Position numbers and translations under genes: made by a program. The notes under the pieces are model-generated. The model ran no database searches, was not told the DNA's origin, and was given only the letters and a program-made list of their open reading frames with translations. DNA of 34,306 nucleotides from a virus, in IMG/VR virus record IMGVR_UViG_3300048591_000552, positions 1-34,306 of that record; one strand, 5' to 3'. Every line of letters starts with the position of its first letter. Position 1 is the first letter of the stretch. Below, piece after piece: positions 3,967-31,056 of this stretch.

Positions 3967-3995
3967 TACAATACACGCAACACGCAGAGCCGGTT
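3967..3995 (+). promoter_or_regulatory. Cassette A: -10 box and leader
   Basis: GGGATACAAT has a good -10 box (TACAAT, 3967-3972). No clear -35 is seen 16-18 nt upstream, so an extended or activator-dependent promoter is likely. CGCAGAGCC follows at 3983-3991, then 4 nt, then the terminator stem. This is one of four related cassettes (others at 6631, 14465 and 19896). Confidence 0.6.
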
Positions 3996-4040
3996 GGCGC
4001 GCGACATTTCCATGGAAATGCTTGCGCGCTTTTTTGTTTT
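3996..4040 (+). terminator. Cassette A: intrinsic-terminator-like hairpin before portal
   Basis: The stem GGCGCGCGA (3996-4004) pairs with TTGCGCGCT (4022-4030) with G-U pairs, and CATTTC (4005-4010) pairs with GAAATG (4015-4020), with loop CATG. T-rich sequence follows directly (TTTTTTGTTTTT). The portal ATG is at 4045, with no Shine-Dalgarno between. The lower arm and CATTTC/GAAATG are shared with cassette D. Confidence 0.75.
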
Positions 4041-4044
4041 TCAC

Positions 4045-6105
4045 ATGGCCGATCAAGTCATCGACACGGAACTCCTCCGCAAGTCAGTCACCGCCGACGA
4101 GGTGAAGGCCGCGCGGCAGACGTATATGTGGTTCGGCTCGTTTCTCCTGCCGACGCCGCTGATCACACTCCCGCCCGACCCGCCGGCGTATTACACCCGC
4201 GCCGGCGACCAGGTGCTCCTCGGCACCGTTGCGTCTGAAGACAAGTGGGCGAACGCGATCAGCATCGCCGCGACGAAGTGCGCTTCGCTGGAATATGACA
4301 TCGAGGGCGACGTGCCGCTGCGGCGCAACCGCATGCACGACATCCTCACGGCCGTCGACGGCATGCAGGGCTGGGGCCAGTTCATCGCCAAGCAGATGCA
4401 GGACTTCCTGTGCACGAACAACGGCGAGTTCGTCGAGGTCGTGCGCGCCTCCAGGGCCGTCGGCAGCCGCGTGGTCGGCCTGCTGCACCTGGACTCCACC
4501 CGCTGCTATCGCACCGGCGACCCCGAGATCCCCGTGATCTACATGGACCGGCTGGGCCGGCTGCACGAGCTGCGCGCGCACCAGGTCATCGCGATCGCCG
4601 ACATGCCGACGCCGCGCCTGACCTTCAACGGCGTGGGCTTCTGCGCGGCCCAGCGCGTATATCGCACGATTTATCGCATGGCGGCCATCGAGCAATACAT
4701 CGCCGAGAAGGTGACCGGACGCCGGCCGCTCAAGGTCACGCTCATCAACGGCCTGACGCAAAAGCAGCTCGAGCAGGTCTTCGCCTCCGCCGACCAGGAT
4801 GCGAGCGCCAAGGGCCTGACCAGCTACATGGGCGCGGCAGTGAGCGCGGTGCCGACGGATGAGGACATCAGCACGGTCGAGATCGAGCTTTCAGGCTTGC
4901 CTGAAAACTTCGACCTGGAGAAGGAGCGCCTGAACGCCAACCTGACCTATGCCAACACCATCGGGCTGGACATCCAGGACCTGCAGCCCGGCGCGATCGG
5001 CGGATCGCTCGGCAGCTCCACGCAGTCGCAGGTGCTCAACGACAAGGCGAAGGGCAAGGGCCTGGCCTACTGGCGGCGCGCCTTCACCGAGCAGCTCAAC
5101 CTCAAGGTGCTGCCGGACGCGACCGTGTTCATGTTCATCGAGAAGGACTATCGCGATGAGATGGCCAAGGCCGACGCGGCCAGCGCGCGCCAGGCGGTGC
5201 GCTCGCAGATGATCAGCGACGGCATGATCGATCCCCAGCAGGCCCTGCAGATGGCCGCGGATGAGGGCGATGTGCCGAGCGCTTTTCTCGACGAGGACAC
5301 CACGCCGGCCGGCACCATCTCGAGCGACGAGAAGCCGATGGACACGCAAGCGGATACGCAAACGGACACACAGGGCGATGATGCGCAGAACGTGCAGCCG
5401 CCGGCGGAAGATAAGCAGCAGCTGCCAGTACCGCCACAGGCGCGACCTGCCGAGAAGGAAGCGCACATCGATCCTGCCGAAGCCTTTGCTTCAGCCTTCA
5501 AAAGCTATAGCCTGAAAGCCTACCGCACCGAGCTGGTCACCATCAAGCCGGCACTGTCGAAGATGCCGGCGGATCGCGCCGACGTGCGCGCCTACTACGA
5601 GCGGGTGACGAAGGAGGTGCGCGCCTACCTCAAGACACTCGCCGCCAAATGCCGCGAGCTGTGCCCGGTTGACGAAGGCGTGACGCGCGCATCGATCCGG
5701 CCTGAGGTGATCTCACCAGACACATCCTGGGTGCGGGGCGTGCTGTATGTCGGCAACAAGAGCCGGCCCGAGGTGGCGATCCGCAGCGTGCTGTATGGCC
5801 GGCGCGGCTTCGGCCCGAAGACGCCCGGCGGCGTGTTGGCCTTCGAGACGAAGGACGGCAACACCGTGTTCACCACGCACGTGGCCGCGACGGATCCCAA
5901 CAACTGGTTTGCGCAGGCCTGGAAGGAGACCGAGCCGCAGAGACGGGCGATGAGCCGGCGCATCGGGCAGATCGGGCGCGAGATGATCGAGCAGCGCGAC
6001 GTGCGGCTTGTAAACGCGGCGCACATCGACGGCTTCGACCCTTCGAAGGGTGACACGGTGCCGAACACGGCCGTGTGGCGCCGGCGGGGCGGCATGAGCA
6101 AATGA
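4045..6105 (+). CDS. Portal protein with fused C-terminal gp10-like neck domain
   Basis: 686 residues from the ATG at 4045. An upstream ATG at 3994 would place the terminator hairpin inside the gene, so 4045 is preferred. Residues 1 to about 420 have portal features: repeated contacts with membrane-free helical segments, a GAAVSAVPTDEDISTVEI region and a long stem-like helix set. A polar Asp/Thr/Gln/Pro linker lies at about 433-472. Residues 475-686 form a separate domain with CPVDEGVTRASIRPEV, a VGNKSRPEVAIRSV strand and NNWFAQAWKE, resembling HK97-gp10-type neck/tail-completion proteins. Twelve portal copies normally form the DNA gate. Portal assignment rests on position and general resemblance; the fused domain is inferred. 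Confidence 0.75.
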   Translation: MADQVIDTELLRKSVTADEVKAARQTYMWFGSFLLPTPLITLPPDPPAYYTRAGDQVLLGTVASEDKWANAISIAATKCASLEYDIEGDVPLRRNRMHDILTAVDGMQGWGQFIAKQMQDFLCTNNGEFVEVVRASRAVGSRVVGLLHLDSTRCYRTGDPEIPVIYMDRLGRLHELRAHQVIAIADMPTPRLTFNGVGFCAAQRVYRTIYRMAAIEQYIAEKVTGRRPLKVTLINGLTQKQLEQVFASADQDASAKGLTSYMGAAVSAVPTDEDISTVEIELSGLPENFDLEKERLNANLTYANTIGLDIQDLQPGAIGGSLGSSTQSQVLNDKAKGKGLAYWRRAFTEQLNLKVLPDATVFMFIEKDYRDEMAKADAASARQAVRSQMISDGMIDPQQALQMAADEGDVPSAFLDEDTTPAGTISSDEKPMDTQADTQTDTQGDDAQNVQPPAEDKQQLPVPPQARPAEKEAHIDPAEAFASAFKSYSLKAYRTELVTIKPALSKMPADRADVRAYYERVTKEVRAYLKTLAAKCRELCPVDEGVTRASIRPEVISPDTSWVRGVLYVGNKSRPEVAIRSVLYGRRGFGPKTPGGVLAFETKDGNTVFTTHVAATDPNNWFAQAWKETEPQRRAMSRRIGQIGREMIEQRDVRLVNAAHIDGFDPSKGDTVPNTAVWRRRGGMSK

Positions 6106-6597: not shown

Positions 6598-6640
6598 GGA
6601 TCACAAAAGAGTAGATCACAAAAAAAGTAGTAGAATCACA
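6598..6640 (+). repeat. Tandem ATCACAAAA-type repeats
   Basis: Units GATCACAAAAGAGTA, GATCACAAAAAAAGTA and GAATCACAACC follow the gp10-like gene. The repeat supplies TAG triplets and also forms the -10 box TAGAAT of cassette B. Confidence 0.65.
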
Positions 6641-6663
6641 ACCAATCAAGCGCAGAGCTGACA
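6631..6663 (+). promoter_or_regulatory. Cassette B: -10 box and leader
   Basis: TAGAAT at 6631-6636 acts as a candidate -10 box, followed by CGCAGAGCT at 6651-6659 and 4 nt to the stem. The upstream region is A-rich (UP-element-like). The arrangement matches cassettes A and D. Confidence 0.55.
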
Positions 6664-6700
6664 GGCGCGCGCATCCGAAGAGGATGTGCGCGCCTTTTTT
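6664..6700 (+). terminator. Cassette B: strong terminator-like hairpin before protease
   Basis: A 13-bp stem pairs 6664-6676 with 6682-6694 (one G-U pair, loop GAAGA) and is followed by six T. The protease ATG lies at 6713 after GTTGCCATTTAC, with no Shine-Dalgarno. This is a textbook intrinsic terminator placed directly in front of a start codon. Confidence 0.85.
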
Positions 6701-6712
6701 GTTGCCATTTAC

Positions 6713-7786
6713 ATGTTGCATGTTTTCAAGGCTGCCGACGGGCGCGACCGATGGGTGATCGTGTCCTCCAGCGCGTTCCGTGACCGCGACCGCGAGATCG
6801 TCTCGACGAAGGCGCTCGAAGCGGATGTCGCGCGCGCCGACGCCGACGGCGACTACGGGCCGCTGCGCTGGTGGCATGTGAAGGGGCTGGACATCGGCGA
6901 CTGCGACTTCAATGCCATGCACGGCCGGCTGCTGGTCGAGTCGGGCACCTTTCGCCACCCCGCGTTTGCCGAGATGGTGAAGGCGCACGCCGGCGCGCTG
7001 GGCGTGAGCATCGGATTCCTGCACCCGCAGGACGAGCCGGATGCAACAGGCATCTTTCACCACATCCGGCGCAAGGAACGGTCGTTACTGCCGCGCGGCA
7101 AGGAGAGCAACCTGCTCACCTTCGTCAGCGTGGTCAAGGAGTCAACCATGACGAATGAGAAGGTCGATACGTTGAAGGAGCTGGTCGGCGACCCTGCCGT
7201 GGTTGACGGCCTGCTGGCAGGCGCCGGCGAGGTTGACAAGGCCGCCGAAGCCGCCGGGATCGCGTTCAAGGAAACAGGCAAGGAAACAGGCAAGGAGGCG
7301 GGCGAGCCTGTTGAGGCCGCACCCGAAGACGAGAACGAACCCGCGCCTGAAGCCGCACCCGAAGCTGCAAAGATGGCAGAAGTGCCGGCGGAAGAGGACG
7401 AAGACGAGGATGAAGGCGAAGAAGTCGCGCACGAGAAGCCGGCCAAAAAGACGAAGCGCGCCGAAAAGAACACCGTCGGCGCGATGAGCGTGGACGAGTT
7501 CGCCAGCCGCATGGGCGAGGCGCTCAGCGTGTCGCTTGCAGCCGTGGTTGAGTCAACCAAAGCCACAAAGGCCGCGGTGGATGCGTTTACGGCGAAGCTC
7601 GAAGCGATGGACACGCGCTTAAAGGAGCTCGAAGGCGAGCAGCCGGCGGTCGTGAGACAAGCGCACGTGGCCAGCCAGGAAGGCGACATCGCTGGCGCGT
7701 TGAAGGAAGCGCTCAAGCAGACCGTCAAGACCCAACCCAACGCCATCGACGGCTGGGTGGATTTCATGATGGGCGCGAAGAAGTAG
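6713..7786 (+). CDS. Prohead maturation protease with C-terminal scaffold
   Basis: 357 residues from the ATG at 6713; the upstream ATG at 6686 would lie inside the hairpin. Residues 1-140 form a herpesvirus-like prohead protease: WVIVSSSAFRDRDREIVS start, H55 in RWWHVKGLDIG, GRLLVESGTF near 71-80, and the nucleophile S99 in GVSIGF. Residues 146-357 are acidic and Glu/Ala/Lys-rich with a predicted coiled coil, as in scaffolding proteins. A second start at 7148 has a strong AAGGAG. The protease cleaves scaffold and capsid N-termini during head maturation. It directly precedes the capsid gene, as expected. Confidence 0.85.
   Translation: MLHVFKAADGRDRWVIVSSSAFRDRDREIVSTKALEADVARADADGDYGPLRWWHVKGLDIGDCDFNAMHGRLLVESGTFRHPAFAEMVKAHAGALGVSIGFLHPQDEPDATGIFHHIRRKERSLLPRGKESNLLTFVSVVKESTMTNEKVDTLKELVGDPAVVDGLLAGAGEVDKAAEAAGIAFKETGKETGKEAGEPVEAAPEDENEPAPEAAPEAAKMAEVPAEEDEDEDEGEEVAHEKPAKKTKRAEKNTVGAMSVDEFASRMGEALSVSLAAVVESTKATKAAVDAFTAKLEAMDTRLKELEGEQPAVVRQAHVASQEGDIAGALKEALKQTVKTQPNAIDGWVDFMMGAKK
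7148..7786 (+). CDS. Nested in-frame scaffolding protein
   Basis: The ATG at 7148 is in frame with the protease gene and has AAGGAG at 7136-7141, a 6-nt spacing. The protease ATG itself has no Shine-Dalgarno. The 212-residue product is the acidic, coiled-coil-prone scaffold part alone (MTNEKVDTLKEL onward; Glu/Ala-rich 170-250; C-terminal helices). Phage lambda makes Nu3 from within gene C in the same way. The scaffold guides assembly of capsid protein into proheads and is then removed. The start site is strongly supported by the sequence; separate expression is inferred. Confidence 0.75.
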   Translation: MTNEKVDTLKELVGDPAVVDGLLAGAGEVDKAAEAAGIAFKETGKETGKEAGEPVEAAPEDENEPAPEAAPEAAKMAEVPAEEDEDEDEGEEVAHEKPAKKTKRAEKNTVGAMSVDEFASRMGEALSVSLAAVVESTKATKAAVDAFTAKLEAMDTRLKELEGEQPAVVRQAHVASQEGDIAGALKEALKQTVKTQPNAIDGWVDFMMGAKK

Positions 7787-9355: not shown

Positions 9356-9372
9356 TCATCTCCTTCTGGATC

Positions 9373-9406
9373 GTGACCGCGCGCTGCGCAAGTGGCGCGC
9401 GGTCAC
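9373..9406 (+). terminator. 12-bp perfect hairpin after the capsid gene
   Basis: GTGACCGCGCGC (9373-9384) pairs perfectly with GCGCGCGGTCAC (9395-9406) across a 10-nt loop, followed by AGGTTCATTCT. The U-tract is poor, so it may partly terminate transcription or protect the abundant capsid mRNA from 3' decay. Confidence 0.65.
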
Positions 9407-9436
9407 AGGTTCATTCTGCATAGAGGCAGACGCCGC

Positions 9437-14464: not shown

Positions 14465-14537
14465 TATAATCCAATTGTTAGAGAACGAGGCGCATCGCCC
14501 AAACAGCCGGGCGCAGCAGCTCCAGAGCCGTAAATGT
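14465..14537 (+). promoter_or_regulatory. Cassette C: consensus -10 box and long leader
   Basis: GGGATATAAT gives a perfect -10 box (TATAAT, 14465-14470); the -35 is weak (TTAGTG, 18 nt upstream). The leader is longer than in the other cassettes and carries CCAGAGCC at 14522-14529 before the terminator stem. Confidence 0.7.
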
Positions 14538-14572
14538 GGCGCGGAACTCAAGAAAGAGTTCCGCGCCTTTTT
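14538..14572 (+). terminator. Cassette C: 12-bp perfect terminator hairpin
   Basis: GGCGCGGAACTC (14538-14549) pairs perfectly with GAGTTCCGCGCC (14556-14567), loop AAGAAA, then TTTTTGTTTTT. Unlike the other cassettes, a Shine-Dalgarno (AGGAGG, about 14591-14596) lies between it and the ATG at 14608. Confidence 0.85.
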
Positions 14573-14607
14573 GTTTTTCGTTCGCAAATCAGGAGGCTAT
14601 ATAACTC

Positions 14608-16176
14608 ATGCCAAAGCTAACCGCCGATGAGATCATCACCCAGCGGCACAAGCGCAACTTCATCCAGCCCGGCGGCCCGCTGCCGAACGCATCGGTGAAG
14701 TATGCCGGCCAGGACACGCAATACATGTCCATCCAGGGCGTCACCATCAACGACCTGGGCGACGTGTCGCCGATCTACGTGCCTGACCCGCGCGTGCAGG
14801 GCGGCTATCGCGCCGTCAACCGCAGCCGCACCGCGCCAGACCTGTCTGAGGCCACGCTCGTGCTGTACGAGAAGCACGGCTCGATTCCCTGGCAACTGTT
14901 CGCGCAAAACTGCCCGTTCAACATCTACGAGCTGACCGGCACCTGCAAGGACCTCTCCGACTTCAGCAATGGCTGGAGCGACTATGTGCTCGTGTATCCG
15001 TCGGCGCTGGTCACCAGCCGCGACCTGGGTGACCGCAGCGCGTGGGACTCGGACGACGCGCAGGAAGACAGCCTGAGTCTGACCTTCGGCGGCAAACCAT
15101 ATCCGGTCGGCGCGCTGACCTTTGCCAACAAGGCGGCCTCGGCGATCGCCACCGTAGCCAAGGACGTGGTGTTCGGCACGCAGATCCGCTGCGGCGACTG
15201 CGGCGTGCCCAACGACGGCACCCGCTTCATTTACATCGCCTGCTCGGGCGCATCCTCGCCGGCGCTGAAGCCCTATGTGGTCTACAGCCTCGACGGCGGC
15301 GCGACCTGGGCGAGCGTGAGCATCGCGACGGCGGCCAACGCTGAAGACGTTGTCGCGATCGACATCGTCGGCGACAAGCTCGTGGTGGCGTCCAAGACGG
15401 GCGGCACGTCGAGCGCTTCGGCGCTGTATGTGTCGAACCTGAACACCGTCACCGGCGCGCCCTCGAGCAGCTTCACAAAGGTGACGCCGAGCGCGTTCAC
15501 GGTCGCGAACACAGTCAACGACATGTATGTGCTGTCGACCACGGAGGTGTTCTTCGCGGCCGATGGCGGCTACATCTACAAGTCCGCCGACGTGCTCAGC
15601 GACATGAGCGTGGTCGACGCCGGCTCTGCGACGGCGCAGAACCTCAGCCGGATCCACGGCATCGACAGCGTGATCTATGCCTCCGGCGCATCCGGCGCGG
15701 TGGTCAAGAGCGCCAACCGCGGCCAGTCGTTCACGGCGACGACCACGTCGCCAGGCTCGGGCACTAACCAGGCGCTGTTCGTCAAGGATGCCCTGGTGGC
15801 GTGGGTGGGCAACAACGCCGGCGCGCTGTATTACACGCTCGACGGCGGCGAAACGTGGACGGCGAAGGGCTTCACCGGCCTGACGCCAGTGGCCATCCAG
15901 GACATCTACTTCGCCACCGACGAGGTCGGCTTCGTGGCGTTCACCGTGTCCGGGCCGGCTGCGCGCGTGGCCTCGACGATCAACGGCGGCGAGCGCTGGG
16001 TGGACTCCTCGCAGTCGACGCCGCGCCTGAACTCGGTCACGAGCGCCGCGACGTTCAACCGCATCGCTGCGCCGATGAGCGGCGAAGCATCGACCGACGC
16101 CAACACGGTGATCCTCGTCGGCCTGGGCACGTCACCCGACGGCGTGGCCTCGCTTGGCACCGCGAACCGCGTGTAA
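14608..16176 (+). CDS. Major tail tube-like protein with beta-propeller (BNR) domain
   Basis: 522 residues with an AGGAGG site about 11 nt upstream of the ATG. Residues 1-180 are placed like a tail tube protein: directly before the tail chaperones and tape measure, with a perfect -10 promoter suited to an abundant product. From about 185 onward the protein reads as a beta-propeller with Asp-box repeats, S-x-D-G-G-x-T-W: YSLDGGATW near 225, YTLDGGETW near 408 and STINGGERW near 456, plus degenerate blades near 323 and 366 (KSANRGQSF). Such propellers occur in sialidases and YCF48/sortilin-like proteins. It may decorate the tail and bind host surface sugars. The propeller is seen; tail-tube identity is inferred. 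Confidence 0.7.
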   Translation: MPKLTADEIITQRHKRNFIQPGGPLPNASVKYAGQDTQYMSIQGVTINDLGDVSPIYVPDPRVQGGYRAVNRSRTAPDLSEATLVLYEKHGSIPWQLFAQNCPFNIYELTGTCKDLSDFSNGWSDYVLVYPSALVTSRDLGDRSAWDSDDAQEDSLSLTFGGKPYPVGALTFANKAASAIATVAKDVVFGTQIRCGDCGVPNDGTRFIYIACSGASSPALKPYVVYSLDGGATWASVSIATAANAEDVVAIDIVGDKLVVASKTGGTSSASALYVSNLNTVTGAPSSSFTKVTPSAFTVANTVNDMYVLSTTEVFFAADGGYIYKSADVLSDMSVVDAGSATAQNLSRIHGIDSVIYASGASGAVVKSANRGQSFTATTTSPGSGTNQALFVKDALVAWVGNNAGALYYTLDGGETWTAKGFTGLTPVAIQDIYFATDEVGFVAFTVSGPAARVASTINGGERWVDSSQSTPRLNSVTSAATFNRIAAPMSGEASTDANTVILVGLGTSPDGVASLGTANRV

Positions 16177-19895: not shown

Positions 19896-19922
19896 TAGAA
19901 TATCCGAAACGCAGAGCCAACA
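19896..19922 (+). promoter_or_regulatory. Cassette D: -10 box and leader
   Basis: GGGTAGAATA gives TAGAAT at 19896-19901. CGCAGAGCC follows at 19910-19918, then 4 nt, then the stem. This is almost the same layout as cassette A. Confidence 0.55.
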
Positions 19923-19962
19923 GGCGCGCGACATTTCCACAGAAATGCCGCGCGCCTTTTTT
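19923..19962 (+). terminator. Cassette D: terminator-like hairpin before distal tail gene
   Basis: GGCGCGCG (19923-19930) pairs with CGCGCGCC (19949-19956), and CATTTC (19932-19937) with GAAATG (19942-19947), separated by one A-C mismatch; loop CACA. Six T follow, and the ATG comes 8 nt later at 19971 with no Shine-Dalgarno. Confidence 0.85.
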
Positions 19963-19970
19963 ATTGCCAT

Positions 19971-20795
19971 ATGTGGTATGCCACTGAGTTCAATTCGGTT
20001 CAATTGCCCGCCGGCAACTTCTCGATCGCCATGCCGCGCGCGTTTGTGCAGAATCGCATGCCGCCCACCGGCGCGATTCTGGGCGAGTATGACCTCGAGG
20101 GCGTGAACAACCGGCAGGGGCAGCAGGTGTGCGATGTGGAGTTCGTTGTGGACGCATGCGACTTCCAGGCCAAGCTCGACGAGATCCTCGGCGCGGCCCG
20201 CCGGCAGGGCCAGCTCAAGATCACCGACAACGCCCAGGTGCGGCGCGCCACGGCGAAGGTCGTGAGCGTGGCCGAGAAGACGACGATGGACGACTGGCGC
20301 GACCGAAAGCAGCGCATCGGCCTGCAGCTGTCGTGTGAGCCGCAGTGGTATGACGACTTGCTGACCACGGTCACGTTCACCAGCGCCACCCGCGTCTCGC
20401 TCAAAAACACACCCAACCGGGGCAACGCGCGCGCGATCAAGTATGTGGTGCTGACGATCACATCCAACATCTCCGGCTCGATGGTCATCACCAGCGAGCC
20501 GCAGGGCGATAACTACTACAACACGTTCAAGTATGGCCAGAAGCGCTACGGCTCATCTGCGATCGGCAGCGGCGCGAAGCAGTCGAGCGCGATCGCCTAT
20601 GTCGGGTCGACGACTGCGCCGCTCGTGATCGACGCCGGCGCCTCAACCGTGCGGGTGGGGGGTGTGGACGCCTACAGCAACACGGCACGGCCGGTCACGC
20701 AGATGGCGCTGCTGTGGATCGAGCCGGGCGACAACATCATTCGCTTCTCGCAGGCGGCGACCGGATCGCTCGCGTTCAGGAGCGCATGGATCTGA
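19971..20795 (+). CDS. Distal tail protein (Dit-like)
   Basis: 274 residues starting at ATG 19971, 8 nt after the cassette D U-tract. Two parts: an N-terminal beta domain (about 1-140) with VEFVVDACDFQAKLDEIL, and a C-terminal galectin-like part that opens with LKNTPNRGNARAIKYVVLTI and closes with ALLWIEPGDNIIRFSQ. The G-N-A turn and the L-x-P-G-x-N-x-I motif are typical of siphophage distal tail proteins. It forms the hub at the tail tip, between tape measure and tail-tip genes. The stop lies in a 14-nt repeat. Confidence 0.75.
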   Translation: MWYATEFNSVQLPAGNFSIAMPRAFVQNRMPPTGAILGEYDLEGVNNRQGQQVCDVEFVVDACDFQAKLDEILGAARRQGQLKITDNAQVRRATAKVVSVAEKTTMDDWRDRKQRIGLQLSCEPQWYDDLLTTVTFTSATRVSLKNTPNRGNARAIKYVVLTITSNISGSMVITSEPQGDNYYNTFKYGQKRYGSSAIGSGAKQSSAIAYVGSTTAPLVIDAGASTVRVGGVDAYSNTARPVTQMALLWIEPGDNIIRFSQAATGSLAFRSAWI

Positions 20796-23919: not shown

Positions 23920-23966
23920 ATGACTCAGACGGAAGCGACGGGCGTCAAGTTCGCGTGAGTCATATG
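23917..23966. other. Candidate serine integrase attP: 50-bp dyad centred on GG
   Basis: CATATGACTCA (23917-23927) and TGAGTCATATG (23956-23966) are perfect 11-bp inverted repeats. The interior is also symmetric: 18 of 24 positions match across each half, closing on GACG-GG-CGTC at 23937-23946. The centre is a single non-palindromic dinucleotide GG (23941-23942). Total length is 50 bp. Serine integrase attP sites are known to be about 50 bp with imperfect dyad symmetry around a 2-bp crossover core. The site overlaps the last codons of the integrase gene, whose TGA is at 23960-23962, so recombination at GG would leave the gene intact. Integration has not been shown. Confidence 0.6.
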
Positions 23967-25504
23967 CGCCACACATCACCCTCACGCCTCAGCCGCGTGC
24001 GTTCGAAGAGCAGCACAAACTCAGGATGGGGCTTGATGCCGGCGATTCTCCTGCGCTCGGTGTCCACCACGACTGCTGCGCAGATCGCCTGCACGATCTC
24101 GCGCCGGATGTATTTGCTGGCTGTCGGCCAGATCTGCCGCAGGCGCACCATGCGCTCGCCGGCTTCCACCGTCCGCGCCGGCGCAGGGATCACCATATTC
24201 TCGACCTGCTCTTTCAGCGCCCGAGCGCGTCGCTCCATGGCCGGCAGATCATCGTCGAGCACCATGCCGGCGTTGATCTGGTAGTTGATCCGCCTGAGCT
24301 GGGCAGCCAGCCTCTCCCGCGCTTCGAGCGCTTGCGCCCGCGCATCGTCCTGGGCATTCACCTCACGGATCGCCTCGCGCCAGTCGTCGGGCAATTCCAG
24401 ATCGGCGATGTAATCGTTCATCGCCTCGACGAGCACGTCTTCGGCCACAGGGCGCGCCGGCGCCGCGCAGGCCTCGCCGCGCTGGGCGGCCGCGCAGCGA
24501 TAGTAGGCGCGCTTGCCGGTGGTGCTTTGCCAGGCGCGCAGAGGCTTGCCGCACACGCTGCACACGGCCACGCGCTCGCCGAATATGTAGTCGTGCTTCA
24601 GCGGCGCCGTGGCCAGCCGGCCCGGGTTGCGACGTTTCGCGCGGGCAGCCAGCGCCGTGCGCGCCAGCTCGTCATCGATGACGGCGGGGTGGGTGTCGCG
24701 CAGGATCTCCATGCGCCGGTCGCGCTTGCGCTTCTTCCGCTCGCCCTCGCCGATGTAGGTGGTGTGGCCGCTGTAGAACGCGGCGGCCTCCGGCGTGAAG
24801 AGCGCGCCGACGCTGTCTTTCGTCCACGGCCGGCGCTCGTCGATCGGCGTGTCATAGGTCGCCTTCTTCTTGCTGTTGCTGCGCAGGCGCAGTGTGCGCG
24901 CGCCGTCGGTGTTCATGGCGTCGGCTACCTGCTGGTCGCTCTTGCCGGCGGCGCAGAGCTGATATGCCGTGAGCACGTGGCGCGAGTCGTCCACGAGCTG
25001 GGGCTTGCCGTCGTCGCTGCGGATGTAGCCATACCGCAGGTCGCCGTTCCACAGGCCGGCCTGAAAGCGCTCGCGCTTGCCCTTTGTCGTTTCTGCGCTG
25101 AGGTTTTGCAGATACCACTCGGCGAAGAACGCCAGGATGATCAGGACGACCTTGCCCAGCGGCGTGGTGAAATCGATCGGCTCCGTGGCGCTGGCAAACG
25201 CCACATCGTGTTTTTGCAGGTCGTCCAGCGTGAGCAGCACGTCGACCAGGTTGCGGCTGAAGCGGTCGAGCTTGTGGCACACCAGCGCGTCGAATTCGCC
25301 GGCGTGCGCGGCTTTGAGCATGTCCTGAAAGCCTGGCCGGTCGGTCGACTTGCCGCTGCGCGCCTCGTCGGTGTAGATCGCGGTGATGGCCCAGCCGGGC
25401 TTGCTGTCGACGAACGACCGGCAGCCGCGTTCCTGCGCTTCCAGGCTCCAGCCCTCGGATTGCTCTTCGCTGCTGTAGCGCAGGTAGAGGGCAATGCGCG
25501 TCAT
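23960..25504 (-). CDS. Large serine recombinase/integrase
   Basis: 514 residues, usual for phage serine integrases. Residues 1-145 form the resolvase domain: Y7-L-R9-Y-S11-S-E-E-Q15 gives the Y-x-R-x-S-x-x-x-Q catalytic motif with S11 as the likely nucleophile, and KLDRFSRN carries further active-site residues. A recombinase domain follows (ERFQAGLWNGDLRYGY), then a zinc ribbon with CSVCGKPL near 314 and YYRC...C near 336-345, a coiled coil near 370-430, and a C-terminal helix-rich part. It catalyses integration between attP and attB. Its start overlaps the previous gene by ATGA, and a candidate att site overlaps its end. Confidence 0.95.
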   Translation of the reverse strand: MTRIALYLRYSSEEQSEGWSLEAQERGCRSFVDSKPGWAITAIYTDEARSGKSTDRPGFQDMLKAAHAGEFDALVCHKLDRFSRNLVDVLLTLDDLQKHDVAFASATEPIDFTTPLGKVVLIILAFFAEWYLQNLSAETTKGKRERFQAGLWNGDLRYGYIRSDDGKPQLVDDSRHVLTAYQLCAAGKSDQQVADAMNTDGARTLRLRSNSKKKATYDTPIDERRPWTKDSVGALFTPEAAAFYSGHTTYIGEGERKKRKRDRRMEILRDTHPAVIDDELARTALAARAKRRNPGRLATAPLKHDYIFGERVAVCSVCGKPLRAWQSTTGKRAYYRCAAAQRGEACAAPARPVAEDVLVEAMNDYIADLELPDDWREAIREVNAQDDARAQALEARERLAAQLRRINYQINAGMVLDDDLPAMERRARALKEQVENMVIPAPARTVEAGERMVRLRQIWPTASKYIRREIVQAICAAVVVDTERRRIAGIKPHPEFVLLFERTRLRREGDVWRI

Positions 25505-26779: not shown

Positions 26780-27748
26780 CTATCCCATCACCTTGTTCAC
26801 GGCCTTGCGTTGTGCCTGGCCGGCGTCGGCGCGGTAGTCGCGCAAAACCGCAATCGACTTGTGGCCGGTGACCTGTTGAATGTCGGCCTCGGCCACCTCG
26901 GCCTTGAACGCTTCGGTGATGAAGCCGCGCCGCGCGCTGTGGCCACTCACCCGATCTGCTGCAATCCCCACCCGCTCGGCGGCTCGCTTCCAGACCAGCG
27001 CGATGTTGCCAGGCGTCAGCGCGCCGGCACCGACGTGGCCATGCTGATCAACCCCGCGAAACACCGCGCCGTCGTCAATGCCGGCAGTGGTCAGCCAGCG
27101 TCTGAGCAGCCGCACGGGGCAGATGGCTGGATCGCTGGAGGCCGGCAGCACCTTGCGCATGCCTTCGCCGGCCTGGTCGGTCTTCGAGCGCCGGATGGTC
27201 AGCGCCACCTCATCCACGCCCCACTCCACATCCTCGACGAGAAGGCTCGACAGTTCAGACCTGCGCATGGCGCCGGCAAACTGCACGCACAGGATCGCGC
27301 GATCTCGATATCCGGCGAGCGTGTCGGGCATGGCCGTGCACATGGCGCGCAATTCGCGCACGGACACGGCGCGCACCTTGCGCCTGGGCGCGCCGTGTTC
27401 GCGTCGAATGCCGCTCATCGCCTTGCGCACGATCTCAGATGCGGTCGGGTTCGGCACGCCGGCGGACTTGTGCGCCTCGCTGATGGCCACATTGCGACGC
27501 TCAATGGTAGAAACCTTCATGCCTTTATCGGCCAGGTATGAGAGGTAATCTGCAACCGTCTTGGGTACCGCCGGGAAATGCTCGCGGTTGTTGTCCTCAC
27601 ACCACTCACTGAAGTCGCGCAGGTCGGACTGGTAAGCGCGGCGGGTGTTGTGTGCACGCGAGGCGCGAATGTAGTGAGCCGTTGAATCAGACACAGTGAT
27701 CGTGTCCGGCGCGCCGGCGCTTCTGGTGGTGGTCAGAGATTGATTCAT
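26780..27748 (-). CDS. Tyrosine recombinase 1
   Basis: 322 residues, a usual length. N-terminal core-binding domain (about 20-105): NTRRAYQSDLRDFSEWCE and TIERRNVAISEAHKSAG. C-terminal catalytic domain: Arg in FAGAMRRSEL, Lys in RRSKTDQ, His-x-x-Arg in GHSARRGF, His in TGHKSIAVL, and the nucleophile Y305 in LRDYRADAG. All six catalytic positions are present, so it is probably active. The first 13 residues (M-x-Q-x-LTTT-x-x-AGA) match those of the second recombinase. A lox-like inverted repeat lies just beyond its stop and an HNH gene beyond that. Its partner site and role (integration, resolution or inversion) are unknown. Confidence 0.92.
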   Translation of the reverse strand: MNQSLTTTRSAGAPDTITVSDSTAHYIRASRAHNTRRAYQSDLRDFSEWCEDNNREHFPAVPKTVADYLSYLADKGMKVSTIERRNVAISEAHKSAGVPNPTASEIVRKAMSGIRREHGAPRRKVRAVSVRELRAMCTAMPDTLAGYRDRAILCVQFAGAMRRSELSSLLVEDVEWGVDEVALTIRRSKTDQAGEGMRKVLPASSDPAICPVRLLRRWLTTAGIDDGAVFRGVDQHGHVGAGALTPGNIALVWKRAAERVGIAADRVSGHSARRGFITEAFKAEVAEADIQQVTGHKSIAVLRDYRADAGQAQRKAVNKVMG

Positions 27749-27841
27749 GTTTGGCCTGTAATCACTCTAATAGGCAAAGGCAGAACAGGCGTGCGACATT
27801 CTGTTAAATAATGTAGGTCAGTATTAGGTGCGGCTATTCGT

Positions 27842-30057: not shown

Positions 30058-31056
30058 TCAATACGCCGCCCTGCCGACGCGCACATCGTCGCCGGCATTG
30101 CGGTCAATGTATTTCTTCGTGGTCTCAAAACTCTTGTGCCGCGCTCGTTTCGAGATGAGCGCGGGATTCTCATCAGCATGCGCAGCGGCGGTGATCGGTG
30201 ACGCCCTGAAGGCGCGGTGAGGCGCAATACGATCCACATCCAGCCCCGCCCGACCTGCCACGCGCGCCACGATCTCGTTGATGTAGCTCTCGCAGGTGAG
30301 CGGCTGGTGCGTGAGCTTGCCGTAGGTGATCTTCACGAACGCCGGCCCCGATGTGATGCCGGCGGCATCCAGCCAGGCGCGCAGCGCTCTATACCCGCAC
30401 AGCTCGTCATCGTCGATCTTCGGCACGGTGATGTATTCATTCGCCGCGCCGGTCTGGTCGGTCTTGGTCTTGCCCAACCAGCAGCGCACATAGTCAGCGT
30501 GCCATTCCATCGCCTCGACGCGCAGCTTCAGCGGCTCGCCTCGGCGCATCCAGCCGGCGTAGGCCGACAGGATGATGGCGCGGTCGCGCAGGCCGATGAG
30601 CGTGTCGCCGCAGGCGCGGCTCATGGCGCGCAGGTCTTCGAGGTTGATGATCGGCTTCACGCGCGGCGTGGTGCGGCCTTCGTCGGCCAGCGTGCGAATG
30701 ACGCCGCTATACATCTTCTCCAGATCGGCATCGTTGAACGGATTGGTGTAGCCGGCGTCGAGGTGATACCACTTGATCGCAGCACGAGCGATGTCAATCG
30801 TTGAGCGCTGCTTGCCTCGGCTGTATAGATGCTCAATGTAGGCACTCAACGTCACCGCCTCTGCTGGCAATGATGGCAACCCATTCTTCCTGCACCACTT
30901 CTCAAAGGTGCCCCACTGAGACGCATACGTCTTGCGCGTGTTGGCACTCATCTCGTTTGCCTTAAACTTCTCGAAGTTGGCGCGCAGGCGCATCGGATCG
31001 ATGCGCTCTGAGGTGAGCGCGCCGGCGGGGTTGGTTGTGGTCAGAGCTTGTGTCAT
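30058..31056 (-). CDS. Tyrosine recombinase 2 (variant active site)
   Basis: 332 residues. The N-terminal core-binding domain has NTRKTYASQWGTFEKWC. In the catalytic domain Arg I is in AGWMRRGEPL, Lys in GKTKTDQTG, and Y316 in TTKKYIDR. The usual His-x-x-Arg box is altered: APHRAFRASPITAA aligns with Arg in the first His position, with a His one residue earlier, and the GH box reads RARHKSFET. It may be active with shifted geometry, or partly disabled. The first residues match those of recombinase 1 at protein and DNA level. It is followed closely by two early genes in the same direction. Confidence 0.88.
   Translation of the reverse strand: MTQALTTTNPAGALTSERIDPMRLRANFEKFKANEMSANTRKTYASQWGTFEKWCRKNGLPSLPAEAVTLSAYIEHLYSRGKQRSTIDIARAAIKWYHLDAGYTNPFNDADLEKMYSGVIRTLADEGRTTPRVKPIINLEDLRAMSRACGDTLIGLRDRAIILSAYAGWMRRGEPLKLRVEAMEWHADYVRCWLGKTKTDQTGAANEYITVPKIDDDELCGYRALRAWLDAAGITSGPAFVKITYGKLTHQPLTCESYINEIVARVAGRAGLDVDRIAPHRAFRASPITAAAHADENPALISKRARHKSFETTKKYIDRNAGDDVRVGRAAY

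Follow-up and report, generated by a model that had tools for sequence, protein, structure and literature searches.

Candidate promoter-proximal terminator gates with a phage-specific box at virion modules of an IMG/VR phage and its relatives

The window, meaning the whole stretch of DNA analysed here, corresponds to a virus record in IMG/VR and is 34,306 bases long. It contains four cassettes, each consisting of (5’ to 3’) a TAnAAT −10 sequence, a CAGAGC box, a GC-rich hairpin with a T-tract, and a start codon. The genes headed by the cassettes are the portal, the prohead protease, a gene at the tail-tube position, and a distal-tail gene. The cassettes split the virion region into four units, namely the portal; the protease, capsid, and their neighbours; the tube to the tape measure; and the distal tail onward. 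The features are as follows.

3967-3972, plus strand: −10 of the portal cassette (TACAAT); the same TACAAT precedes the portal gene in relatives G326 and G317
3985-3990, plus strand: CAGAGC box of the portal cassette; conserved in relative G001 at L004:2978
3997-4040, plus strand: predicted terminator of the portal cassette, hairpin (3997-4029) and T-rich tract
4045-6105, plus strand: portal gene, ATG at 4045, no Shine-Dalgarno; weak Pfam portal match, orthologues 35-70% identical in relatives
6631-6636, plus strand: −10 of the protease cassette (TAGAAT)
6653-6658, plus strand: CAGAGC box of the protease cassette; G001 counterpart at L004:5755
6663-6700, plus strand: predicted terminator of the protease cassette, hairpin (14 bp) and T-tract
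6713-7786, plus strand: probable prohead protease gene; Foldseek pairs its structure model, with modest confidence, with prohead proteases and T4 gp21
14465-14470, plus strand: −10 of the tube cassette (TATAAT), 52 nucleotides from the box
14523-14528, plus strand: CAGAGC box of the tube cassette; G001 counterpart at L023:1456
14538-14579, plus strand: predicted terminator of the tube cassette, hairpin (12 bp, 14538-14567) and T-rich tract
14591-14596, plus strand: Shine-Dalgarno (AGGAGG) of the tube-position gene
14608-16176, plus strand: 522-aa gene at the tail-tube position (putative tube); weak BNR-like match
19896-19901, plus strand: −10 of the distal-tail cassette (TAGAAT)
19912-19917, plus strand: CAGAGC box of the distal-tail cassette
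19922-19963, plus strand: predicted terminator of the distal-tail cassette, hairpin and T-tract
19971-20795, plus strand: distal-tail gene; weak SPP1 Dit match

For the 522-aa protein, the predicted structure was of too poor quality for use.

A sequence-only reading of this DNA had described the four-copy cassette, and its coordinates all hold. The −10 sequences begin at 3967, 6631, 14465, and 19896, and each is followed by CAGAGCY (starting at 3985, 6653, 14523, and 19912). The gap between the box and GGCGCG, given as four nucleotides in three copies and eight in the fourth, measures 4, 4, 8, and 4 nucleotides. The hairpins with T-tracts were recovered in all four copies. Three of the starts lack a Shine-Dalgarno, as had been noted, and the tube copy has AGGAGG. 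At the sequence level, each hairpin has the form of an intrinsic terminator, a GC-rich stem with a T-tract directly after it, and lies between the predicted promoter and the first gene. The stem begins 24, 26, 67, and 20 nucleotides past the end of the −10 in the portal, protease, tube, and distal-tail copies, respectively, and the start codon lies 15, 18, 40, and 21 nucleotides from the beginning of the T-tract. The tube copy is the most extended, with 52 nucleotides between −10 and box versus 10 to 16 in the other three.

CAGAGCY alone is not enriched in the window (16 occurrences versus 11.6 expected). The combination CAGAGC-N6-GCGCG is enriched (3 versus 0.25 expected, and 0 of 100 shuffles), and CAGAGC, which all four leaders contain, has a shuffle p of 1e-4 as a shared word. 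This word sits downstream of the −10; no common element was found upstream of the −10 when the four window copies were compared by eye. The −10 matches of the window are individually modest, with per-copy shuffle p values of 0.005 to 0.10.

The close relative G001 has a portal 70% identical and a capsid 61% identical to those of the window. It carries cassettes at the portal, protease, and tube starts, with −10 sequences TAGAAT, TATAGT, and TATAGT and with CAGAGC 12 to 14 nucleotides further on. Its hairpins differ from those of the window. A strict exact-pattern scan of viral contigs for the cassette returned nothing, and a relaxed scan returned the full cassette only as the three matches in G001. 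The cassette is neither a chance arrangement nor specific to the window. Pairing of CAGAGC with the 3’ arm of the terminator, as an alternative structure, is possible in the G001 protease copy and not in the window, and this candidate was dropped.

More distant phages carry the same arrangement with other boxes. The portals of G326 and G317 are about 35-38% identical to the window portal. G326 has four cassettes, three of them at the portal, protease, and tube genes and one at the gene orthologous to window gene 12896. There are three in G317 (portal, protease, and tube), and G318 has cassettes at the portal and protease. The sequence-only reading had looked to the orthologous gene starts of related phages for the hairpins; G001, G317, and G326 all have them at the portal, protease, and tube starts, and the distal-tail cassette is absent at the orthologous position in G001. 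Cassette copies of different phages share little sequence. What is kept is the −10, which is TAGAAT or TACAAT in most copies (but TATAGT in two G001 copies and TATAAT in the tube copy of the window), and the leader from −10 to stem, which is 20 to 36 nucleotides in 12 of the 14 copies of the window, G001, G317, and G326.

The box is CAGAGC in the window and G001, CGAACG in G326, and CTGTCG in G317. The word common to the four leaders of G326 is CGAACG, and that common to the G317 leaders is ACTGTCG. Sharing of the box by all leaders within a phage has a shuffle p of 0.0001 to 0.0014, depending on the phage (for G326, none of 20000 shuffles gave it). No box was found in the leaders of a phage bearing another box, and CAGAGC is absent from the leaders of G326 and G317. 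G317 and G326 are closely related, with terminases 71% and portals 67% identical, yet the box differs between them at every copy. Hairpins mostly differ among the copies within a phage. They are all different in G326, and the sole identical pair is that of the portal and protease copies of G317, whose tube hairpin differs. Because each genome uses one box throughout but mostly different hairpins, and because all copies are switched between kin, a phage-specific box is best explained as the site of a trans-acting reader.

The reading favoured here, to which we assign a probability of about one in two, is that the cassettes are promoter-proximal terminator gates heading virion modules, and that a phage-encoded trans-acting factor opens them together. 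RNA polymerase would initiate about 7 nucleotides past the −10, transcribe a leader of roughly 15 to 30 nucleotides carrying the phage-specific box, and halt at the intrinsic terminator. The predicted product would be an RNA of about 50 to 60 nucleotides (about 98 for the tube copy). The module would be expressed once polymerase gets past the terminator. The predicted factor would read the box in the DNA or in the nascent RNA, most likely with readthrough at all cassettes at once. Such antitermination would turn on all four modules (portal, protease-capsid, tube, and distal-tail) at the same time.

For the box taken by itself, the strongest competing account is a stoperator-like operator. The box would be bound by a phage repressor just past the late-promoter start, with the terminator as a second lock silencing virion genes in lysogeny; induction would free the promoters, and readthrough would be passive or due to another factor. 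The window encodes one serine recombinase and two tyrosine integrases (23960-25504, 26780-27748, and 30058-31056), and because of these integrases the phage is probably temperate, in favour of this account. Stoperators of Cluster A mycobacteriophages are short, asymmetric, and mostly in one orientation, and their consensus is distinct between heteroimmune phages (PMC6550527), a pattern that the boxes here share. They differ in lying mostly away from promoters, and their coupling to a terminator hairpin is not described. The account is judged unlikely, given that box words found outside the cassettes are not arranged in any obvious way at early promoters, with CAGAGCY near chance in the window and CGAACG scattered in G326, and that the constant presence of a terminator is left unexplained.

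A −35 cannot be made out in any of the window copies, in which the bipartite sigma70 score is no better than that of shuffles; the case for a promoter is therefore built from the −10, its spacing, and what the relatives show. Significant bipartite sigma70 promoters lie 5’ of the hairpin in the G001 protease copy (TTGACA-15-TATAGT), G005, G006, G313, and G314. The same search recognised none upstream of the hairpin in G008 and G010.

Every relative considered here is either a metagenomic record or a contig of a MAG. A search with a protease alignment yielded 59 loci (49 non-redundant). Among the 49, a strong terminator was called no more than 45 nucleotides before a start at 22 of 42 protease ORFs versus 18 of 305 other plus-strand ORFs, which served as the comparison set (odds ratio 17.5; Fisher p 5e-13, in a test that ignores phylogeny). 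A few of the 22 automated calls are doubtful by eye (for example, L157 and L158). The by-eye count is about 23 loci with the arrangement at the protease, and in many of these the hairpins are unrelated in sequence. In several relatives, the protease start has no terminator. Four of the loci (L110, L111, L114, and L145) have none at the protease and have a similar arrangement before the gene just upstream. That gene is small and ferritin-like (by eye), and the promoter-terminator arrangement there heads the capsid operon.

The leaders of L116, L117, L144, L146, and L150 (with a variant in L109) have CGCTGAAAAGCC in common, with a possible GCU-GAAA-AGC mini-hairpin; it immediately precedes the terminator stem or sits at its base, close to where the window has CAGAGC. 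In relative G002 (L025 17267-17310, about 16930, and 15224 on the minus strand), a repeated TATAATCAAGCCATG sequence has the start codon 6 nucleotides after the −10, which suggests leaderless transcripts; the terminator there precedes the promoter. The prohead protease ORF at L043:17275-19509 has an N-terminal 2H phosphoesterase/LigT-like domain, where other relatives have DUF7218 or DUF3140. One relative was found in a Chloroflexi (Chloroflexota) MAG. The cassette pattern occurs in 0 of 301 genomes of that phylum, with no sign of a host element.

A further alternative is that the cassettes are passive module boundaries, in which the hairpin ends the transcripts of the upstream unit and fixes the readthrough for the next, with a weak or absent promoter and no trans-acting factor. 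Every hairpin is indeed also at the end of a preceding unit, and the lack of a −35 in the window and of a recognised promoter in G008 and G010 fits. Against it, the −10 and its spacing are constant, and the box is identical within a phage and changed at all copies between phages; passive boundaries are accordingly an improbable account of the cassettes.

The predicted terminated RNAs of the window are 58, 59, 98, and 56 nucleotides long, and the promoter-to-terminator distance gives about 51 to 59 nucleotides in most window and G001 copies. Lengths of this kind would suit terminated phage small RNAs or a cis-acting Put-like RNA acting on polymerase, both raised in the sequence-only reading and both rather improbable. 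The position is always directly before virion gene starts, and no Rfam covariance model matched in the window (0 matches). HK022 put and lambda nut are leader elements near a promoter that control readthrough, and Put RNA works in cis with no need for a phage protein. The two-hairpin arrangement of put and the boxA/boxB arrangement of nut are not seen here, and the leader is too short for two hairpins, with 20 to 26 nucleotides before a single strong hairpin in three of the four window copies, which speaks against the Put-like alternative.

A translation or mRNA-stability element for starts lacking a Shine-Dalgarno is very improbable, even with several such starts after the U-rich tract and a hairpin without a U-tract before the window start at 215, given that genes lacking both a Shine-Dalgarno and a hairpin are common in the window phage (so the missing Shine-Dalgarno is not peculiar to the cassettes), that some cassettes have one (window tube, G005, G313, and G314), and that the T-run begins at the stem end, as in a terminator.

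In anatomy, the gates proposed here are, on the best reading, closest to AlpA and Q control, but would be spread across several virion modules. AlpA of Pseudomonas aeruginosa has two target promoters, those of alpB and PA0807, and bypasses the predicted terminators that directly precede these genes; the PA0807 terminator begins 26 bp after the start site (PMC7969949). The likeness is an intrinsic terminator near the promoter and directly before the first gene, with one factor serving several promoters. The AlpA element, however, lies between −35 and −10, and a −10-like pause sequence is required (PMC9371919), whereas here the box is in the transcribed leader, in three to four copies for virion modules. 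Q is loaded at a single late promoter, which carries a QBE and a pause element (PMC6606751). In the Q systems of lambda, 21, and 82, a terminator past the late promoter holds back the late phage genes, a likeness to the proposed gates; here the gates are distributed rather than at a single promoter, and neither a QBE nor a pause element was recognised. GafY and GafZ, activator and antiterminator for the phage-particle genes of the Caulobacter GTA cluster, act at a promoter with a degenerate −35 (PMC11150451), and this is where the likeness to the gates as proposed lies. GafZ differs in having a single promoter target, with a terminator placed after the first gene and built of 150-bp repeats. 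The elements of Q, AlpA, and GafZ lie between −35 and −10, unlike the box; because the shared element follows the predicted start site, membership of the Q/AlpA kind is not claimed. The SAS/ESAS of Cluster K mycobacteriophages resemble the cassettes in that a promoter with an inverted repeat recurs ahead of many genes (PMC3203893, PMC11373665), but the inverted repeat is within the promoter motif, is not described as a terminator, and is followed by the 13-bp SAS.

The sequence-only reading had proposed a phage factor that lets polymerase pass all of the terminators. The phage-uniform box fits such a trans-acting factor. On the other side, neither of the Q families, PF06530 and PF03589, turned up in 14 partial records (controls were positive), and no −10-like sigma-dependent pause element was recognised by eye in the window leaders. 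Since the right-arm proteins of the window have no counterpart in G317 or G326, no shared factor can be named. The product of G317 35754-36182 (weak SWIM zinc finger) and its neighbour, both also in G326, are leads only. More tentatively, the cassettes may belong to an antitermination system unrelated to Q, in which the factor would read a leader box at three to four late promoters and box-factor specificity classes would switch in concert between close kin.

Few phages have had their control of late genes worked out in detail. A code word that varies between phages and not within one is a natural experiment, open to box swaps and to the search for the cognate factor by comparative genomics. 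The cassette may also mark the late operons of uncultivated phages.

Three further observations concern the window. A strong hairpin lacking a clear T-tract follows the capsid gene both here (9371-9408) and in G001 (L004 8356-8385). At 27774-27815, GGCAGAACAGGCGTGCGACATT resembles the distal-tail cassette, with 15 of 16 bases matching over ACAGGCGcGCGACATT, and adjoins a tyrosine integrase; its 3’ arm and T-tract are missing, and it is possibly a degenerate cassette copy. The product of 215-1678 is about 85% identical in amino acids to that of a G317 gene, far above the 30-55% or so of most structural genes, which marks a recent exchange.
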